A stretch of DNA of 64,000 bases, from positions 347,501 to 411,500 of the forward strand of contig NC_019738.1 in the NCBI RefSeq assembly GCF_000317515.1. Reading direction: 5' to 3'. Under the pieces are notes generated by a model. It did no database searches. It was given only the letters and a program-made list of their open reading frames with translations, and was not told the origin of the DNA. This document shows positions 6,565 through 37,883 of this stretch, piece by piece. The translations under genes and the position numbers were made by a program. How positions within the stretch are numbered: the first letter of the stretch is position 1; each line of letters begins with the position of its first letter. The DNA is from Allocoleopsis franciscana PCC 7113. GTDB taxonomy: Bacteria > Cyanobacteriota > Cyanobacteriia > Cyanobacteriales > Coleofasciculaceae.

Positions 6565-8181
6565 TTAATCCCGTTGCCAGATTTTAATCATGCTATCCGC
6601 ACCACCACTAGCAATCCATTGACCATCCGAACTAATAGCAACAGCCATTACTGAAGCGGCTGAATCATCCCGGAGAATACCTAACTGTTGACCCGTTTTG
6701 ATATGCCAAATCATCACAGTACCGTCCGCACTAGCACTAATTAAAGTGGGCGTATCTATGCTAAAAACCACTGACATCACTGGCCCTGCATGACCTGTAA
6801 ATATACCCAGAAGTTCCAAGGTTTCCAGCTTCCACAACTTAATATTTCCATCAGTGCATCCCGCCGCCAAAATTTCACCATCTGATGTCATGGCGAGAGA
6901 GCAAACGGAGCTCAGATTACCCGTAAGAGTAATAGCAGGAGAAGGGTTAATTTCTCCATCCGTGGTATCTAGTAACCGTAAGCTAATGATTCCATCACCC
7001 CCTCCACTGGCAAGGGTTTGTCCATCGGAACTCAGTGCGATCGCAGATACCTGTCCAGTCCACTGGCTGAGATTACCCAAACATTCTCCCCGATCCAAAC
7101 GCCAGAGCTTGATGGTTTCATCAAAACTTCCACTAATCAGCATTTGACCATTCTCACTCATGGCTAGCGATCGCACTGAGCTGGTATGACCTTTCAATGT
7201 GCCAATCAACTCCCCCGTATCCAGACGCCATAAATGAATCTTCTCATCAAAACTACCGCTAGCTAGGATTTTGCCATCGGCACTAATTGCTAAACAAAGC
7301 ACTCCCTTAGTATGTTTCGATAGAGTGTGGAGGAGTTTCCTAGTGGGTAAATGCCACACCTTAATCGTTTTGTCAAAACTGCCACTCACTAACGTTTGCC
7401 CGTCTGGAGTAATGGCAAGGGCATGAATCCAGTCTAAATGTCCTGTTAAGGTGTTCAACAAACTCCAAGTTTGCGGAGGTAGGGAGAAATCAGATGATTC
7501 TTCAACAGAAACAGAGTCTTGAAACGGTGCAAGAGTTGACGATTCTACAGGAATTGAATGAGTAGGATCTGACGTAAAATGCTGAGATTCGTTAACAACT
7601 GGTACGCCTTCAGGTTGAAGAGTTGGTAATGGGTTTTGAGGCTGATCACTTCGGCTGTGTGTAGTATCCGTTAGCTGACGTTCCAGCCAATGAAGTTCAG
7701 CCGTTGTTGAGGCAATCACCTCCTCCAAACGCTCGACTCTGGAGGGAAGAGAGGCACTATTTAGGTATTGCACAATGCTATTGAGAGATTCCTCTAAGCC
7801 TGTCAATTGTCCTTTGAATTGGATAATTTTCAAAGCACTGGAGTCAAGTTCCGAGGATTCTATCTGAGCTAGATACTCTGGAATCTGAGCTTTTAACGAG
7901 GCGATCGCTTTTTCTAGCTGCTGTTCTTGTACGGTGTAATTCTCTTGTTTCAGTTGCCGTTCTAGTTGATTGATCGCTACCGTCAGCCGCCGCTTCATTT
8001 GCTCCTCTAAGCGGAGACGATTCAGCAGGTTCAGTAACAGTGCGATCGTAACAGGAACGGCTGCATAGATGAGCAGCCCTGTCCTTACGGCGATAACCCA
8101 GCCAATCACAGAGGCAAGGAGGAATATAAATTCTGCAATCAGTAGACGGTGCTTCAACATTGAGCCATTCTGGCTATTCAC
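6565..8181 (-). CDS. Membrane-anchored WD40 repeat protein
   Basis: 538 residues. Residues ~10-55 hold two hydrophobic helices (LLIAEFIFLLASVIGWVIA and LLIYAAVPVTIALLLNLL), followed by a charged, coiled-coil-prone region to ~175 (LEEQMKRRL ... IASTTAELHWLERQL), a Ser/Pro-rich linker, then seven WD40 units from ~245 to the end. Typical units read GHLDWIHALAITPDG and LVSGSFDKTIKVW. Seven units close one beta-propeller, a protein-binding platform; no catalytic domain is fused. It is therefore likely a cytoplasm-facing membrane scaffold. The first WD blade begins LNTLTGH and the protein ends in the seventh IKIWQRD strand, so the propeller appears complete. Downstream of mgtE on the same strand with 56 bases between. 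Confidence 0.85.
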   Translation of the reverse strand: MNSQNGSMLKHRLLIAEFIFLLASVIGWVIAVRTGLLIYAAVPVTIALLLNLLNRLRLEEQMKRRLTVAINQLERQLKQENYTVQEQQLEKAIASLKAQIPEYLAQIESSELDSSALKIIQFKGQLTGLEESLNSIVQYLNSASLPSRVERLEEVIASTTAELHWLERQLTDTTHSRSDQPQNPLPTLQPEGVPVVNESQHFTSDPTHSIPVESSTLAPFQDSVSVEESSDFSLPPQTWSLLNTLTGHLDWIHALAITPDGQTLVSGSFDKTIKVWHLPTRKLLHTLSKHTKGVLCLAISADGKILASGSFDEKIHLWRLDTGELIGTLKGHTSSVRSLAMSENGQMLISGSFDETIKLWRLDRGECLGNLSQWTGQVSAIALSSDGQTLASGGGDGIISLRLLDTTDGEINPSPAITLTGNLSSVCSLAMTSDGEILAAGCTDGNIKLWKLETLELLGIFTGHAGPVMSVVFSIDTPTLISASADGTVMIWHIKTGQQLGILRDDSAASVMAVAISSDGQWIASGGADSMIKIWQRD

Positions 8182-8237
8182 GCTCCGCCAGATCCCCTGG
8201 TTTAGATGATAATCTGACGAGTTACATTAATCTGTAA

Positions 8238-9629
8238 TTAAAGTCCCAAAACCATGCGGGCAATATAAAAATAAATCAGGACACCTAAAACATCAACCGC
8301 TGTGGTGATAAACGGGGCTGACATTAAGGCTGGATCGAAACCAAAGGAACGGAAGAGAAAGGGCAATGCTGAACCGGCAACAGAGGCAAGAATTGCGATC
8401 GCCACGAGACTCACGCCTACCGAGAAAGCCACAAAGAAATTCCCTTGCAGTAGGTAAGCCCACAACGTTGCTACCGTCCCCAGAATAGCTCCCAACAGGA
8501 ATCCTGCCAGTGCTTCTCGAAACACAATTTGAACAACTCCCAAATCCCGAATTTCATCCGTATTTAAACCCCGAATCACGACAGTTGAAGATTGAGCACC
8601 TACATTCCCGCCAGTGCCCGTTAGTAGGGGAATAAACGCCGCTAAGGTTACCACTTGCTGCAAGACATCTTCTTGAGAGCGGATAATAGTACCCGTGACG
8701 GTATTGGTGAGCAGCAAAACAAATAGCCAAACCACCCGCTTTCGAGCAACGGCAAATAAATTAGTTTGGAAATAATTGTCACCCTCCGACTGTACACCAC
8801 CCCCTAACGCATAGATATCCTTCGTGGTTTCTCTCTCTAAAATATCGATCACATCATCAACTGTGACAATACCAACTAAACGCTCTTCCCGATCCACCAC
8901 AGGTACGGCAAGAAAGTCGTAACGCTGAATTAGTCGTGCCACTTCCCCTTGGGCTGTATCTGTGTGAACATAGACCACATCGCGAGTCATAATTTCACCC
9001 AAAGTTTGCTCAGGCTGGGACGTTACCAAATCCCGTAGTGAGACAATCCCACTCAGATGTCGTGCCCCATCGGTGACATAAAGATAATAGATAATCTCGC
9101 TGGCATTGGCTAAACTACGGATTCGTTCTAGGGTTTCGCTAACCGTCAAATTCTCTGTCAGAGATATATATTCGGGCGTCATCAGTCGCCCCGCCGTATC
9201 GGCTTCGTAACCCAGCAATTGGGCAGTTGCGGCGCGTTCTTCCGGGCTGAGTTGTTCAACTAGAAGCCGGACAACTTTTGCCGGTAATTCATCCAACAAA
9301 CGAGCGCGATCATCGGGCGACATCTGATCAACAATGTCGCAAAATTCTTGACGTTTGAATTTATCAATCAGTGATTCTTGGACACTAGAGTCCAGATACT
9401 CATAAACCTCGATCGCTTCGTTTTTAGGAAGCAAGCGAAATGCGATCGCCTGCATGGCTTCGGGTAACCCCTCAATCGCTTCGGCAATATCTACCGGTTG
9501 TACGGGTACCAGTAGTGCTTTAGCGTCTTGCAGATTTCCTTGTTCCAGCAGTATTTGCAGTTGACTACGAACCTGCTGCCGTCGTTCACTGCGTGATATT
9601 GCCTGGAGGGGATTTTGGTTTTCAGTCAA
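8238..9629 (-). CDS. mgtE: Magnesium transporter MgtE
   Basis: 463 residues with the MgtE order: an N-terminal superhelical domain (residues ~30-130, with DIAEAIEGLPEAMQAIAFRL and MSPDDRARLLDELP), two CBS domains (~135-265, MTPEYISL and MTRDVVYV), and a five-helix membrane domain (~290-460) with TGTGGNVGAQSSTVVIRG and the final SAPFITTAVDVLGV, which lines the pore. It is a Mg2+ channel gated by intracellular Mg2+ through the CBS and N domains. The only start before conserved sequence is TTG at 9629: a stop lies seven codons upstream (9648-9650) and the first ATG is inside the N domain. It may be cotranscribed with the WD40 gene downstream. Confidence 0.93.
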   Translation of the reverse strand: MTENQNPLQAISRSERRQQVRSQLQILLEQGNLQDAKALLVPVQPVDIAEAIEGLPEAMQAIAFRLLPKNEAIEVYEYLDSSVQESLIDKFKRQEFCDIVDQMSPDDRARLLDELPAKVVRLLVEQLSPEERAATAQLLGYEADTAGRLMTPEYISLTENLTVSETLERIRSLANASEIIYYLYVTDGARHLSGIVSLRDLVTSQPEQTLGEIMTRDVVYVHTDTAQGEVARLIQRYDFLAVPVVDREERLVGIVTVDDVIDILERETTKDIYALGGGVQSEGDNYFQTNLFAVARKRVVWLFVLLLTNTVTGTIIRSQEDVLQQVVTLAAFIPLLTGTGGNVGAQSSTVVIRGLNTDEIRDLGVVQIVFREALAGFLLGAILGTVATLWAYLLQGNFFVAFSVGVSLVAIAILASVAGSALPFLFRSFGFDPALMSAPFITTAVDVLGVLIYFYIARMVLGL

Positions 9630-9712
9630 TACAAGCCCCCGATTCAGTTATACGTGAACAAGGCAATAATGCCTCTTCTTGTGTCCTTCATTTAAAGAAT
9701 CATTGCTCTCCC

Positions 9713-9761
9713 ATTACCAATTACCAATTACCAATTACCAATTACCAATTACCAATTACCC
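9713..9761. repeat. Heptamer short tandem repeat (ATTACCA)n
   Basis: Six perfect ATTACCA units and a seventh with one change (ATTACCC), between mgtE and the epimerase gene. This is the short tandemly repeated heptamer type well known from filamentous cyanobacteria. No promoter or terminator is evident inside it. Confidence 0.9.
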
Positions 9762-9773
9762 AATTCCTAACAA

Positions 9774-10598
9774 TTACACACTAATTTGCGGATGATTTAA
9801 CTGATAGCCAGCATCTTTAATCTTCTGATTCTTAACCCTGGCATTATAGGGTCGAACACTCTTCAATGAACAATCCCAAATTACTTGAGGTAAATGGTGC
9901 CGTTCGCACACCCTATCCAGGAGTTCACGAGTAGTGAGATGGGCATCATCCACGAGATTATAAATACCCTGTAGTCGATTAGACCGAGCTAATTCGATCG
10001 CACCCACAATATCATCTAAATGCACCCAATTGGTGGCGTCATAACCATTCCCAGGACGGGTTGTACCCGCAACTCGCCTAAATATTTTCTCCAGTTCCCG
10101 CCCAGGGCCATAAATTCCTCCTAGTCGCAGGATACAAACCTTCAGGTTATCATTAGATGCCGAGAGTAAAACTTGCTCGGTTTGAGCGAGAGTTTGCCCA
10201 TTCGCGTTAGCGGGTGCAACGGCTGAGGATTCATCCACCCACGCCCCGTCTCTATCCCCGTAAACCGCGTAACTTCCGGTATAGATTAGTTGTCGTACTG
10301 TCGGCGATTGATTGAGGACGGAGACTAAAGTTTGAGCGGTGTGCAGATATGTTTCTTCGTACACCTCAGCATTTTTAGCCCCAACACTCAACAGTACAAT
10401 TTCTTGGTCTTGCAGTACCGATTGTAATCCGACTGGGTCATTCCCTTTCACGACGACAACGCGCTGAGCATAGTCTTCGAGAGTACTCACATTTTCCGGC
10501 TGGGTCGTTGTGGCGGTGACAAAAAAGCCTAACTCATGACGCCAGTAATCTGCGATCGCTTTTCCCACATAACCACAGCCAATGATAGCAACCTTCAT
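9774..10598 (-). CDS. NAD(P)-binding SDR-type epimerase/dehydratase family protein
   Basis: 274 residues. The N-terminus has the extended-SDR nucleotide-binding motif (VAIIGCGYVGKA, residues 3-14). LIYTGSYAVYGD at ~107-118 supplies the serine and tyrosine region of the sugar nucleotide epimerase family, and the later LRLGGIYGPGRELEKIF and NWVHLDDIVGAI are typical of that family. The classical YxxxK pair is not obvious, so this may be an atypical SDR (YeeZ-like) rather than an active sugar epimerase. It follows the glutathione peroxidase gene on the same strand with 21 bases between, so the two probably form an operon. Confidence 0.8.
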   Translation of the reverse strand: MKVAIIGCGYVGKAIADYWRHELGFFVTATTTQPENVSTLEDYAQRVVVVKGNDPVGLQSVLQDQEIVLLSVGAKNAEVYEETYLHTAQTLVSVLNQSPTVRQLIYTGSYAVYGDRDGAWVDESSAVAPANANGQTLAQTEQVLLSASNDNLKVCILRLGGIYGPGRELEKIFRRVAGTTRPGNGYDATNWVHLDDIVGAIELARSNRLQGIYNLVDDAHLTTRELLDRVCERHHLPQVIWDCSLKSVRPYNARVKNQKIKDAGYQLNHPQISV

Positions 10599-10619
10599 GG
10601 CGAAGCTTGACCTCTCGTG

Positions 10620-11105
10620 TTATTTGGCTAACTCTGTTTCAATCGCAGCAATCAATTCTGGAGACTCTGGCGTCACACTGCTCTTAAAACGAGCGACGAT
10701 TTCACCTTGCTTACTCACCAAGAATTTCTCGAAGTTCCAAGCCACGTCCCCAGATGGCTGTGCGGCTTGGGTAAGTCGAGTATAAAGGGGGTGTTGCTCA
10801 GAACCCTTGGCATGAACTTTATCCATTAATTCAAAGCTGACGCCGTAGGAAGTGGAACAAAATTGGGCAATTTCCGCATTACTTCCGGGTTCCTGCGCTC
10901 CAAAATCATTGCAGGGAAACCCCAAAATGCGTAACCCCGCGTCTTGATACTTTTGATTTAACTTTTCTAATCCCGCATACTGGGACGTGTAGCCACAGTA
11001 GGAAGCAACATTGACGATTAAGAGAACCTTTCCTGCATATTCTGATAGTGGCTTTTCCTTTGCGTCCATCGTCTTAACGACAATGTCAGACACTGTGCTG
11101 CTCAT
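10620..11105 (-). CDS. Glutathione peroxidase family thiol peroxidase
   Basis: 161 residues, full length for the family. Peroxidatic Cys37 sits in NVASYCGYTSQY; Gln71 (GAQEPG) and Trp123-Asn124 (AWNFEKFL) complete the Cys-Gln-Trp-Asn tetrad. The family reduces hydrogen or lipid peroxides; bacterial members with cysteine usually take electrons from thioredoxin rather than glutathione. Cys83 (FCSTSYGV) is another conserved position. No signal peptide is present, so it is cytoplasmic. Start ATG at 11105 has AGGAA about 10 bases upstream. First gene of a likely two-gene unit with the SDR gene. Confidence 0.93.
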   Translation of the reverse strand: MSSTVSDIVVKTMDAKEKPLSEYAGKVLLIVNVASYCGYTSQYAGLEKLNQKYQDAGLRILGFPCNDFGAQEPGSNAEIAQFCSTSYGVSFELMDKVHAKGSEQHPLYTRLTQAAQPSGDVAWNFEKFLVSKQGEIVARFKSSVTPESPELIAAIETELAK

Positions 11106-31390: not shown

Positions 31391-31486
31391 TTGGGGGTGT
31401 TGTCCTGGCTATCACCATTTTTAAAATTAAGAATAATTATAGATTTTTTGTAGAATATAAACCAAGCTTTATTGGAGGGCTAATGT

Positions 31487-34078
31487 ATGACCTTTCCAAA
31501 TTGGGTGACTTGGCTAAAAGAACGAACAGCTTTCGGTATTCTTTCCGAGGACGTGATCAATGCGCTCGCGCAAGTGATGGAAGAGCGCGTAGTGCCCGGT
31601 AACACGCGCTTGGTGATTGAAGACACACCCGTTGAATATCTCTACATTCTCCAACAAGGGCGTATTGAGAGTGACCGAGCTAACCAAACGAGTTCTGCTT
31701 GGGCTATAAGTTGGCTCCCAGGAGCCATTATTCATTTACAAGAATTACTATTTGACCAATCCGCTCAAAGAACCGTCAAAACCCTCAGCGAATGTCACCT
31801 GTGGGTAATCCCTGCCCAACAATTTCAAGAATTACTCAGCCAATATCCCGAAATTGCTCAAGCTTTTTCGCCCCAACTTGCTGCTGAACTCGCTAAACTG
31901 TCTTCTCAACTCAGTTACGAGCAAGAGCGTCAGGCTATTTTAAGGCCTTATTTAGTGAGTAGGGCAAAACGGGGAATTATCGGTAAAAGCCGCTATGCTG
32001 TGCGATTGCGGCAACAAATTAAAAAAGCAGGGGAAGACCGCCAATCCGCACTTGTTTTCGGCGAACCTGGACTAGAAAAAGATAATATAGCCACTCTAAT
32101 TCACTTTGGTTCCGCATACCGACGCGAACCTATTATTAAAGTCGATTGCAGCACTGTACAGGCAAGTGGTGCAGAATTGTTTGGTCGTGCGGGTGGGAAA
32201 CCAGGATTAATTGAAGCCCTCGGACAAGGCACATTAATTCTCAACAATATTCAAGAATTACCCTCAGAATTAATGCCAACTCTGGCTAATTTGTTAGAAA
32301 CCGGCAGCTACACACCCGTTGAAAGAGAACAGGGCAACAACAGGGAAGAACCCAATCCAAAATCTAAAATCCAAAATCCCAAATTGCAATGTCAGGCTCA
32401 TATTGTCATGATTTCTGAAAAAGCCCAGCCAGACATTGAACATCGGGTGAGTCATTTAATCAAAGTTCCACCCCTGCGGGTACGGAAAGTGGATATTAGC
32501 GACCAGATGGATTACTACATTAGCCTCTGGTGTCGGTCGAAAGGGAGTTCTAAACCCCGTGTCACACCAGAAGCCCTGCGTCGATTACAGGCGTATGATT
32601 TTCCGGGCAACTTGAGGGAATTGCAAAACCTCCTAGAGCGAGCACTCGTACAATTAGGCACTGCCAAAGAACTCACTGAAGAAATTGTCTGGCCTTCTCA
32701 GAGTAAGAAGAAACAATTTCGATTGAATCTATTAAATGCTTATCCTAGATTGAGGCGATTTTTAAGAGGTGAGTGGTGGCCCGATCGCATTAATTACGGA
32801 TTTACCTTATGGTTTTTTGCCCTAATCGTGACATTGGGATTCGTCGGCCCCCAAAATCGTCAAGAAAATTTTACGTTAAATCTCTTTTGGGCGTGGTGGT
32901 GGCCTTTAATTTTGGTGGGCTTTCCCTTTGTCGGACGCCTTTGGTGTGCAGTTTGCCCCTTCATGATTTATGGAGAAATAACACAGAAACTTTCCCTGTG
33001 GCTATGGCCTCGTCAGTTGAAGCGTTGGCCTAGAGAAGCGGCTGAAAAATGGGGAGGCTGGTTTTTATTTGGCTTATTTGTCCTCATATTTTTGTGGGAA
33101 GAACTTTGGAATTTAGAAAATACCGCTTACCTATCGGCTTGTTTGCTTCTGTTAATTACGGCTGGAGCAATGATTTTTTCTGCCATATTTGAACGTCGAT
33201 TTTGGTGCCGTTATTTATGTCCTATTGGGGGGATGAATGGTTTATTTGCTAAGTTATCGATGACGGAATTAAGGGCGCAACAAGGGACTTGTTCGGCGGA
33301 ATGTACGACTTACCAATGTTACAAAGGCGGCTCCCAAAAAGGTGAAGGGTTGGAAACGGCAGGTTGCCCGTTATATTCTCACCCAGCTCAATTGGAAGAT
33401 AACCGGGACTGTGTGTTGTGTATGACTTGCCTCAAAGCCTGTCCTCATCGCTCCGTTGAGGTCAATTTGCGCCCTCCAGGAATTGAGCTTTGGACAACTC
33501 ATAATCCCCGTACTTATGAGGTAGCGCTACTCTTATTGTTGCTCGGTGGGATATTTCTGCATCGATTACCGGAAATACAGGCAGAATTAGGATTGTCCCT
33601 AAATTTACAGGATTTTTGGCAACATTTTGGCTTATCGCTTTTTGTGTTAGCCATTCCCGCCACGATCCCTTTAATTGCCTATGGGGGGAAACAGTTATTT
33701 TATCGGCTTATTCAAGCTCTAAAATTCCCAATTCCTAATCCCAAACCTAAACCCTTTGTAGAGCTAGCCTATGGATACTTACCCTTAGTCCTGGCTGGTA
33801 ACTTAGCTCACTATTTGCGCTTAGGTTTAAGTGAAGGTGGGCGGCTGTTGCCCGTGACGTTGGCGACTTTTGGTCTGAGTGGTGAAGGGTTGCCTGTGTT
33901 TGTGGCTCATCCGGCTGTGATCGCCTTTTTACAGGGGGTGACGCTGATGGTTGGTGTGGTTTTGACAATATTTCTGACACAAAAAATTGCTTGTCAGCCT
34001 GTGCGATCGCTCTTAGCGCAACATTTCGCATCTGTTATTCTCTGTATCTGTCTTTGGGTCATTATCGTCGGTTATTAA
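31487..34078 (+). CDS. Cyclic-nucleotide-binding / sigma54-type AAA (degenerate) / membrane polyferredoxin fusion
   Basis: 863 residues in three parts. ~10-135: a Crp-type cNMP-binding domain (VVPGNTRLVIEDTPVEYLYI, LYILQQGR). ~160-400: the central AAA domain of sigma54 activators, still clear from VPPLRVRKVDI and YDFPGNLRELQNLLERALVQ, but Walker A is broken (FGEPGLEKDN), the Walker B pair is Asn-Asn (GTLILNNIQELP) and GAFTGA is replaced (ELFGRAGGKPG). ~430-860: an NapH/CcoG-like membrane part with CAVCPF, CRYLCPIGG, a cysteine group (CSAECTTYQC) and a ferredoxin cluster (CVLCMTCLKACPHRS), plus about eight helices. Residues ~284-301 are an in-frame heptamer repeat. GGAGG lies 8 bases before the ATG. 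Likely a membrane redox protein regulated by a second messenger. Confidence 0.85.
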   Translation: MTFPNWVTWLKERTAFGILSEDVINALAQVMEERVVPGNTRLVIEDTPVEYLYILQQGRIESDRANQTSSAWAISWLPGAIIHLQELLFDQSAQRTVKTLSECHLWVIPAQQFQELLSQYPEIAQAFSPQLAAELAKLSSQLSYEQERQAILRPYLVSRAKRGIIGKSRYAVRLRQQIKKAGEDRQSALVFGEPGLEKDNIATLIHFGSAYRREPIIKVDCSTVQASGAELFGRAGGKPGLIEALGQGTLILNNIQELPSELMPTLANLLETGSYTPVEREQGNNREEPNPKSKIQNPKLQCQAHIVMISEKAQPDIEHRVSHLIKVPPLRVRKVDISDQMDYYISLWCRSKGSSKPRVTPEALRRLQAYDFPGNLRELQNLLERALVQLGTAKELTEEIVWPSQSKKKQFRLNLLNAYPRLRRFLRGEWWPDRINYGFTLWFFALIVTLGFVGPQNRQENFTLNLFWAWWWPLILVGFPFVGRLWCAVCPFMIYGEITQKLSLWLWPRQLKRWPREAAEKWGGWFLFGLFVLIFLWEELWNLENTAYLSACLLLLITAGAMIFSAIFERRFWCRYLCPIGGMNGLFAKLSMTELRAQQGTCSAECTTYQCYKGGSQKGEGLETAGCPLYSHPAQLEDNRDCVLCMTCLKACPHRSVEVNLRPPGIELWTTHNPRTYEVALLLLLLGGIFLHRLPEIQAELGLSLNLQDFWQHFGLSLFVLAIPATIPLIAYGGKQLFYRLIQALKFPIPNPKPKPFVELAYGYLPLVLAGNLAHYLRLGLSEGGRLLPVTLATFGLSGEGLPVFVAHPAVIAFLQGVTLMVGVVLTIFLTQKIACQPVRSLLAQHFASVILCICLWVIIVGY
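32351..32384. repeat. Heptamer repeat (CCAAAAT/CTAAAAT) inside the fusion gene
   Basis: CCAAAATCTAAAAT then CCAAAATCCCAAAT, read in frame as NPKSKIQNPK. The same style of repeat, in the same reading frame, occurs in recJ at 39971-40002 (TQNPKSKI). Confidence 0.8.
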
Positions 34079-36275: not shown

Positions 36276-37883
36276 ATGGCTGAACTTAAACTTCGTCTAA
36301 AACGGGGAAATACGGAAAAAACAATTTCGGTGAATCGAGAAGAATTTACCATCGGTCGATTGCCCGAATGCAACTTAAACTTGCCTTTCGAGGGAATTTC
36401 TCGATACCATGCCCGCTTATTAAAAACAGCCTCCGGGGTATGGACAATTGAGGATATGGGGAGTAAAAATGGGACGCTCATGAATAAACGCCCCGTGATT
36501 TCGCCGGAAAAGATTAAGGACGGCGATGTTATTTGGCTGGGAGATATTAGCCTTGCGGTTATTTTGGTCGAGCCGCCTCAAGCGAATGCAAGACAGGTAG
36601 AATCCTCGGAAAAAGGAGCTACTATTCTTCACAATGTCCAAGAACTGCAACAGCATTGGATACAAGCGAATGCTGACCGTGATGATATCAGTAACAAAGA
36701 CAAAACGATTGCCCGTCTCAAAGATTTGGTGGAGATAGCGAAGAGTCTGAGTGCGGCTGAATCGATAGAAGCAATATTCTTCCAGGTGCAGGAAGTCGTC
36801 TTTCGTTACCTCAAGAGTATCGAGCGATTAGCATTATTAATTGATGTGAGTGGTGCAGGGGAACTTGAATTGCTCAATGCAGCAACTCGAAATGTTTTCC
36901 AACAAGAAAATTTGTCTCCTGATGGCAGTTGGATTAGCCAAACCATCTGTCAAAAAGCATTTACAGAAAAAGTAGCCATTCAAACAGCGGATGCCCAAGT
37001 CGATCAACGGTTTGAGGGGCAACAGAGTATTTTACTCAAAAACATTGGTAGCGCCATGGCTGTTCCTCTGTGGGATGAAAATAAGGTTGTCGGTGTGCTG
37101 TATGCCGATGCCCATTTTTCTTCAATGCAGTGGGCCAAAGAGGGAGAGGAAGACCTCAGCTTTTTTTCCACTTTAGCCAACCTCGTAGCCTCTAGTGTGC
37201 AACGTTGGCTCTTGCAACAAAAGCTTAGAAGTGAAGAAATGATTCGGCAACGATTAGAGCGATATCACTCTCCCGCCGTCGTACAACAGTTGATCTCAGT
37301 AGGCGCATTACCAGACGGTCGGTTATCTCCCCAAGAGAGTGAAATCAGCATTCTGTTTGCAGATATTGTTGGCTTTACAGCACTTTCAGAACGGTTAAGA
37401 CCCGCAGAAATTGCCCACTTACTCAATGGTTTTTTCGAGGAAATGTTGCAAGAAGTTTTTGCTATGGGCGGGACTTTGGATAAGTATATTGGAGATTGCA
37501 TCATGGCATTTTTTGGTGCTCCGGAACCTCAAAAAGACCATGCCGACCGGGCTGTTGCCGCCGCCCAAGGAATGCTGACTCGTTTAGAGAATTTGAATGC
37601 CAATCAAGTCTTGCGCGAACCTCTGCAATTACGCATTGCAATTAATAGTGGAAAGGCCGTGGTTGGCGATGTCGGCAGTTCTCAACGGGTAGACTATACA
37701 GCGTTAGGAGCCACGATTAATCTAGCTTCCCGCATGGAAGGCATCTGTCCTCCTGGTGAATGCGTCTTGAGTGAAGCAACTTATCAAATGCTGGCGCAAA
37801 AGCAGGGTTTTGAGGAGATGGGAGAACACCGTTTCAAGGGAATTGACCGACCCATACCGGTTTATCAGACGAAGAGGCGTTGA
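36276..37883 (+). CDS. FHA-GAF-class III adenylate cyclase
   Basis: 535 residues. FHA domain ~22-95 (FTIGRLPECNL, ISRYHARL, DMGSKNGTLMN) binds phosphothreonine; a GAF domain covers ~150-305; a class III cyclase domain ~355-535. Both metal-binding aspartates are present (LFADIVGFTALSERL and YIGDCIMAFFG); the purine-selecting Lys (TLDKYIGD) and Asp (RVDYTALGATINLASR) favour ATP, so cAMP is the expected product. No membrane helix. The divergent Ser/Thr kinase could supply the phosphothreonine ligand, and a cNMP-binding redox protein lies 2.2 kb away; both links are inferred from position. Element B follows the stop by ~20 bases. Confidence 0.92.
   Translation: MAELKLRLKRGNTEKTISVNREEFTIGRLPECNLNLPFEGISRYHARLLKTASGVWTIEDMGSKNGTLMNKRPVISPEKIKDGDVIWLGDISLAVILVEPPQANARQVESSEKGATILHNVQELQQHWIQANADRDDISNKDKTIARLKDLVEIAKSLSAAESIEAIFFQVQEVVFRYLKSIERLALLIDVSGAGELELLNAATRNVFQQENLSPDGSWISQTICQKAFTEKVAIQTADAQVDQRFEGQQSILLKNIGSAMAVPLWDENKVVGVLYADAHFSSMQWAKEGEEDLSFFSTLANLVASSVQRWLLQQKLRSEEMIRQRLERYHSPAVVQQLISVGALPDGRLSPQESEISILFADIVGFTALSERLRPAEIAHLLNGFFEEMLQEVFAMGGTLDKYIGDCIMAFFGAPEPQKDHADRAVAAAQGMLTRLENLNANQVLREPLQLRIAINSGKAVVGDVGSSQRVDYTALGATINLASRMEGICPPGECVLSEATYQMLAQKQGFEEMGEHRFKGIDRPIPVYQTKRR

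Follow-up and report, generated by a model that had tools for sequence, protein, structure and literature searches.

Gene and Domain Layout

The window, a 64,000-nt stretch of DNA from Allocoleopsis franciscana PCC 7113, carries an open frame of 863 aa (31487..34078, + strand, as are all features of the gene below) that starts with ATG and is preceded, 7 nt upstream, by a GGAGGG ribosome-binding site read directly from the sequence (31474..31479). Its product, P0001, is encoded by one copy in its own genome. An initial annotation had described the frame as a cyclic-nucleotide (cNMP) domain joined to an AAA domain of the NtrC class and an NapH-like membrane module, and this is confirmed by Pfam, as cNMP_binding (PF00027, residues 34-120, 3e-11), Sigma54_activat (PF00158, residues 164-282, 5e-13), AAA_lid_14 (PF25601, residues 331-398, 1e-12) and two stretches of Fer4_5 (1e-7) all match above the curated cut-offs. 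No DNA-binding domain of the Fis type was found in P0001 in the Pfam scan.

The AlphaFold2 model of the whole protein has a mean pLDDT of 82.5. The cyclic-nucleotide-binding fold occupies residues 10-125 (31514..31861), as delimited by PF00027 and by its alignment to CRP and to 90 members of the family, and a long helix predicted at residues 122-155 (31850..31951) links it to the AAA α/β domain of sigma54-activator type (residues 161-275; 31967..32311). The AAA lid (residues 305-400; 32399..32686) carries the VPPLR and FPGNLREL landmarks noted earlier and in the model leads straight into the membrane helices. The membrane module, defined from Pfam, the model and stand-alone homologs, extends over residues 411-863 (32717..34075) and comprises four helices, an iron-sulfur domain and five more helices. 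The linker that joins the AAA subdomains contains 4.4 copies of an in-frame AATCCAA heptanucleotide repeat (32354..32384), which insert NPKSKIQNPKL; this linker is 22 residues long in P0001 and 11 in 52 of 72 main-clade members.

Distribution and Evolution of the Family

The family is present in 139 of 194 genomes of the class (protein search, E ≤ 1e-25); across the phylum, 120 of 386 genomes gave matches, partial ones counted. Three cyanobacterial clades are seen: a main clade at 55-79% identity to P0001 that spans many cyanobacterial families, a paralog clade of ~900-aa proteins at ~40% identity, and a picocyanobacterial clade at ~45% identity that lacks the cNMP domain. Maximum-likelihood analysis of the membrane module supports the paralog (100/99), picocyanobacterial (100/100) and main (75/87) clades. 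A local fusion artefact is rejected given this conservation of the architecture and the spread of the family; the survey of domain order, proposed with the initial annotation, found the fusion to be the rule within cyanobacteria, not split orthologs, and stand-alone modules in other phyla. The gene is divided over two frames in a few genomes (L044, L048, L049), where frameshifts are the probable cause.

Beyond the cyanobacteria, GTDB genomes were scanned with the membrane module, and among the best 80 of 438 confirmed relatives stand-alone modules are common in Chloroflexi and Bacillota, with others elsewhere. Among the matches listed is a 929-aa protein from a Desulfofustis metagenome-assembled genome whose Pfam domains (cNMP, AAA, lid, Fer4_5) are ordered as in P0001 (25% identity over 829 columns); the domain order is therefore not unique to cyanobacteria. 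In the membrane-module tree, this fusion falls on the stand-alone side, apart from the cyanobacterial fusions, and groups with a Bacteroidales stand-alone module (83/51), both on long branches. On this tree, the cNMP-AAA-membrane fusion may have arisen once or more than once.

The Membrane Iron-Sulfur Module

In the main clade, median identity is 88% in the iron-sulfur segment, 80% in the first membrane part, 68% in the AAA domain and 46% in the cNMP domain. Twelve cysteines are invariant in 90/90 members of an alignment from which duplicates and broken frames (L001, L031, L044, L048, L049, L050) and partial, stand-alone or duplicate sequences (L130, L132, L140) were left out. C487 and C490 form a first membrane CxxCP motif (32945..32956) and C574 and C578 a second, CxxxCP (33206..33220), while C602, C606, C611, C627, C642, C645, C648 and C652 lie in a ferredoxin-like segment (33290..33442) that would hold two clusters, the number and type of cluster being presumptive. 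Nine helices, with all of the iron-sulfur cysteines on the cytoplasmic side, are predicted from the AlphaFold2 model and the positive-inside rule; modeled alone, the module reaches a pLDDT of 82.8 and a pTM of 0.85. Searches of the PDB gave no convincing solved fold of this kind (best Foldseek E-value 1.2; VIA-align Z of at most 6.5 over 686 chains), a result that does not make the fold a new one.

The best named relative is NapH/MauN (TIGR02163), which scores 49.9 bits against a cut-off of 213.05 and shares with P0001 its four helices, the pair of membrane CP motifs and the ferredoxin segment for two clusters; P0001 differs in its five extra helices, in the fused AAA and cNMP domains, and in that no nap genes were recognized alongside. 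NosR (NF046105) is second, with a weak match to the polyferredoxin part that lies far below its cut-off (19 bits), and P0001 has neither its FMN nor its periplasmic domain, and no nos genes were recognized alongside. CcoG/FixG/RdxA proteins are, like P0001, membrane polyferredoxins; however, the CcoG model gives no match to the module at E ≤ 1, an Ig-like domain is missing, and no oxidase genes were recognized next to the gene.

An AAA Domain without Catalysis

The AAA part is well modeled by AlphaFold2 and matches NtrC1 (3m0e) with a target-normalized TM-score of 0.82. Its Walker A motif, GEPGLEKDN (residues 192-200; 32060..32086), had been described as having lost residues, which is true only of the usual Gly replaced by E197; both glycines (G192 and G195) and the lysine are present. 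Of the 72 main-clade members, 51 have Glu and 14 have Gly at residue 197, whereas K198 is kept in 72/72 main, 11/11 paralog and 6/6 picocyanobacterial sequences, and D199 in 72/72 of the main clade. The Walker B motif, GTLILNN (residues 248-254; 32228..32248), reads LILNN at its end, with Asn-Asn for Asp-Glu as first noticed, N253 and N254 each being found in 71/72 main-clade members. In the paralog clade, an intact GxGKT Walker A is accompanied by a Walker B with mostly Asp (7/11) and then Asn (11/11), and in the picocyanobacterial clade the pair is mostly Asp, then Gln or Asn. The GAFTGA (L1) loop, placed by alignment with PspF at residues 234-239 (32186..32203), is deleted in every aligned cyanobacterial member and degenerate (GAFPQA) in the Desulfofustis protein; the alignment check thus found neither Walker B nor GAFTGA intact, and the reported absence of the latter stands.

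Sigma54 was detected in 0 of 194 genomes of the class, the own genome of P0001 included, with positive controls detected; a passage of PMC3162934 likewise states its absence from 29 cyanobacteria, in line with what the initial annotation had stated. With sigma54 absent, the AAA domain is unable to serve its usual partner and, given also the deleted GAFTGA loop, a true sigma54 activator is rejected.

Of 14 close pairs, 13 have an AAA dN/dS of 0.02-0.13 and the remaining one, a picocyanobacterial pair, 0.22; these values resemble those of the membrane part, while the cNMP part is more relaxed (~0.08-0.28). Judged from these alignments, the AAA domain is catalytically dead across the family yet under purifying selection, which is what would be expected of a structural or regulatory part, and the suggestion that it became such a link gains support. 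The domain is therefore taken to be non-hydrolyzing, and may still bind nucleotide. That the N-terminal half is instead a pure anchor or the functionless relic of an ancient fusion would agree with the loss of its catalytic residues and with the loss of the cNMP part in several lineages; this is very unlikely in view of the low AAA dN/dS and of K198, D199, N254, N375 and E378, which vary little or not at all among main-clade members.

The cNMP Domain and the Question of cAMP

The canonical cAMP contacts of CRP, FGE and the Arg after it, are absent from the 72 main-clade and 11 paralog members aligned, the paralogs having FGY in place of FGE; the column of CRP Glu-72 holds Glu in 0/72 main members and Arg is found at P0001 position 95 in 9/72, P0001 among them, all of these assignments depending on the alignment of a variable loop. 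Among the aligned members, a canonical cAMP-type motif is kept only by the Desulfofustis relative. In 13 of 139 genomes, moreover, the main copy lacks the cNMP domain: its match starts at about residue 129-146 and the frames are 726-760 aa long, 12 of the 13 coming from one family (f28). Along with its absence from the picocyanobacterial clade, this indicates that cNMP input is dispensable, and the missing contacts together with the domain losses make cAMP input unlikely.

The initial annotation had proposed that a cAMP signal is passed through the dead AAA domain to switch electron transfer in the membrane, and for this claim support was not forthcoming. The cNMP fold lies well above the Pfam cut-off, the Desulfofustis relative has the motif just mentioned, and an FHA-GAF-adenylate cyclase gene is found 2.2 kb downstream in the window (36276-37883), with a Ser/Thr kinase gene on the opposite strand between the two. 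Against this stand the missing contacts, the domain losses, the position of the cNMP domain as the least conserved part of the protein, and the lack of a cyclase among the neighbor clusters common to at least 3 main-clade loci. Such a switch is highly improbable, and cAMP sensing was rejected as an explanation.

Gene Neighborhoods

No conserved neighbor was found in 21 main-clade loci. Next to the main clade, an adjacent YtkA gene was not seen and no copper gene was recognized, so that any acceptor proposed for it is a guess. In 17 of 28 loci of the paralog clade, cysK follows on the same strand, no more than 3 kb downstream, compared to 0 of 21 in the main clade, the identity as cysteine synthase having been confirmed above the TIGR01139 cut-off in one tested gene. 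The 28 loci also contain rhodanese-like genes (8), PsbA (7), PetC (6) and a flavoprotein resembling sulfide:quinone reductase (SQR), whose match to the SQR model is below the cut-off (6); loci of one genus are not independent in these counts, and L165, the same plasmid as L072, was counted once. The same neighborhood is found on two plasmids. In L072, L073 and other paralog loci, some of them on plasmids, clusters with cysK, PsbA, PetC, rhodanese, DsrE, and Rrf2 or MerR are seen, which are probably a mobile sulfide or low-oxygen island.

The stand-alone modules are preceded by a gene for a secreted, membrane-anchored protein, recognized by simple sequence criteria, directly upstream and within 200 bp in 37 of 47 loci; loci with less than 700 bp of upstream sequence, as well as L076 (target misassigned), L102 and L125 (no target), are not part of this count. 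YtkA matches were obtained in 8 of 10 tested genes preceding such modules, 7 of them above the cut-off, and the combined His and Met content of the secreted proteins is by itself unexceptional against background. Chloroflexi and Bacillota (L074-L123) have a conserved two-gene unit, in which the gene for a secreted protein of YtkA type comes first and that for a stand-alone polyferredoxin second. Excerpts of the literature describe the YtkA-domain protein CtaK as serving oxidase copper centers (PMC13344008) and CcoG as a cupric reductase encoded in ccoGHIS (PMC7558416). Taken with the cysK context of the paralogs, the YtkA pairing and these roles suggest a metal or sulfur redox setting as the likeliest.

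A more specific proposal would be a cupric reductase proper of the CcoG/FixG kind that supplies Cu(I) to an oxidase or plastocyanin. The pairing of stand-alone relatives with YtkA-type genes, as FixG with FixH, agrees with it, as do the ccoGHIS arrangement and the fall of slr1529 mRNA, from the probable Synechocystis ortholog, to 0.29 at 3 µM Cu (excerpt of PMC4182526); however, the CcoG model is unmatched, the main clade has no recognized copper gene beside it, and the paralog is located in sulfur-type clusters, so that this assignment is unlikely.

Relationship to Synechocystis slr1529

In two genomes, the gene stands between what we take to be pyrG/ndhO and a gene for a 359-aa desaturase, with SRP54 presumably beyond, these neighbors having been named from their sequences. 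A plasmid copy in Aulosira carries the annotation of slr1529. In Synechocystis, sll1441 is a delta-15 desaturase gene of 1079 bp (excerpt of PMC2593844) and slr1531 encodes SRP54 (excerpt of PMC4754418). By this synteny, the P0001 gene is the probable ortholog of slr1529 ("ntrX"), which passages of PMC3516471 and PMC4182526 name as a nitrogen assimilation regulator. Across cyanobacteria, the gene usually carries a label of this kind. Although the two appear to be the same gene, no support for a role as nitrogen regulator was seen in the sequence of P0001 or its family. A description of slr1529 as a membrane iron-sulfur protein was not found in the open-licence literature searched, nor was a paper that names the neighboring locus tags together. 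NosR has likewise been called a transcriptional regulator though it is a membrane redox protein.

A regulatory role could be retained in another form, in which the iron-sulfur membrane part senses redox state or metal and the AAA/cNMP half signals to RNA polymerase or to a partner protein, in a manner similar to VpsR and without sigma54. VpsR, TyrR and DhaR resemble P0001 in that the AAA fold is the same, the GAFTGA loop is lost and sigma54 is not used, but they are DNA-binding regulators, and VpsR-type proteins keep their DNA-binding domain; P0001 has Asn-Asn in Walker B, lacks a DNA-binding domain and is located in the membrane. VpsR is the top sequence match in the PDB and is among the enhancer-binding proteins (EBPs) without GAFTGA, which act without sigma54 (excerpt of PMC3162934). 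The slr1529 knockout, studied in a set of 32 mutants of putative regulators, was among the six whose metabolites had changed most at 72 h (excerpt of PMC5318462). The Desulfofustis gene adjoins SpoIIE, RsbW-like and STAS genes (L147, 1-2700) and the Bacteroidales stand-alone gene an RsbW-like kinase (L132, 6500-7040), hinting at partner-switching control in these relatives. Given the missing DNA-binding domain and the lack of a conserved partner gene in main-clade cyanobacteria, a sensor-regulator of this type is considered rather doubtful.

Proposed Function

P0001 is probably a membrane electron-transfer protein of the NapH/NosR/CcoG kind, neither a transcription factor nor controlled by cAMP, with an N-terminal half that serves as a selected cytoplasmic platform. 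Its working part would be residues 411-863, through which electrons from a cytoplasmic or quinol donor may pass by way of the iron-sulfur clusters to an acceptor that lies within the membrane or past it; the best guess for this acceptor is a metal ion, for example Cu(II), or else a sulfur compound. The N-terminal half would be derived from a cNMP-sensing regulator of the EBP type that lost its DNA binding and ATP hydrolysis as well as its contacts with sigma54 and cAMP. Selection likely retained this half as a platform in the cytoplasm by which the membrane part is assembled or gated, possibly with nucleotide bound but not hydrolyzed.

Several observations speak against this electron-transfer explanation: the main clade lacks both a conserved neighbor and an adjacent YtkA gene, CcoG is unmatched while NapH/MauN and NosR fall far below their cut-offs, and the fold searches gave no solved structure similar to the membrane module. 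The metabolite changes of the slr1529 knockout would be equally expected from a regulator (excerpt of PMC5318462), and the changes in slr1529 expression with copper and iron sit within broad responses (excerpts of PMC4182526 and PMC3516471). If P0001 is nevertheless a membrane redox protein, the regulator data on slr1529 in PMC5318462 call for a new reading, and cyanobacterial membranes would have a widely conserved redox component whose identity can be tested.

A tentative possibility is that the activator AAA domain has turned into a non-hydrolyzing nucleotide-binding gate, which responds to ATP or to a second messenger as in VpsR/FleQ and controls the flow of electrons through the membrane iron-sulfur part to metal or sulfur acceptors. 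If so, a module of the EBP family operates outside transcription and has been kept in most cyanobacteria. The family in any case provides a clear example of a regulator AAA domain that has lost catalysis and, as part of a membrane protein, is still under selection.

In three genomes of one genus, the AAA domain is duplicated within the protein (1134-1137 aa), the third case being deduced from two search matches. In the tandem variant at L154 and L155 (~7600-11050; 1134 aa), the first AAA domain keeps GxGK and an Asp-His Walker B. Double-AAA proteins from f38 genomes of the same phylum were considered as relatives and rejected, as they have GAFTGA-like motifs and look like ordinary activators.
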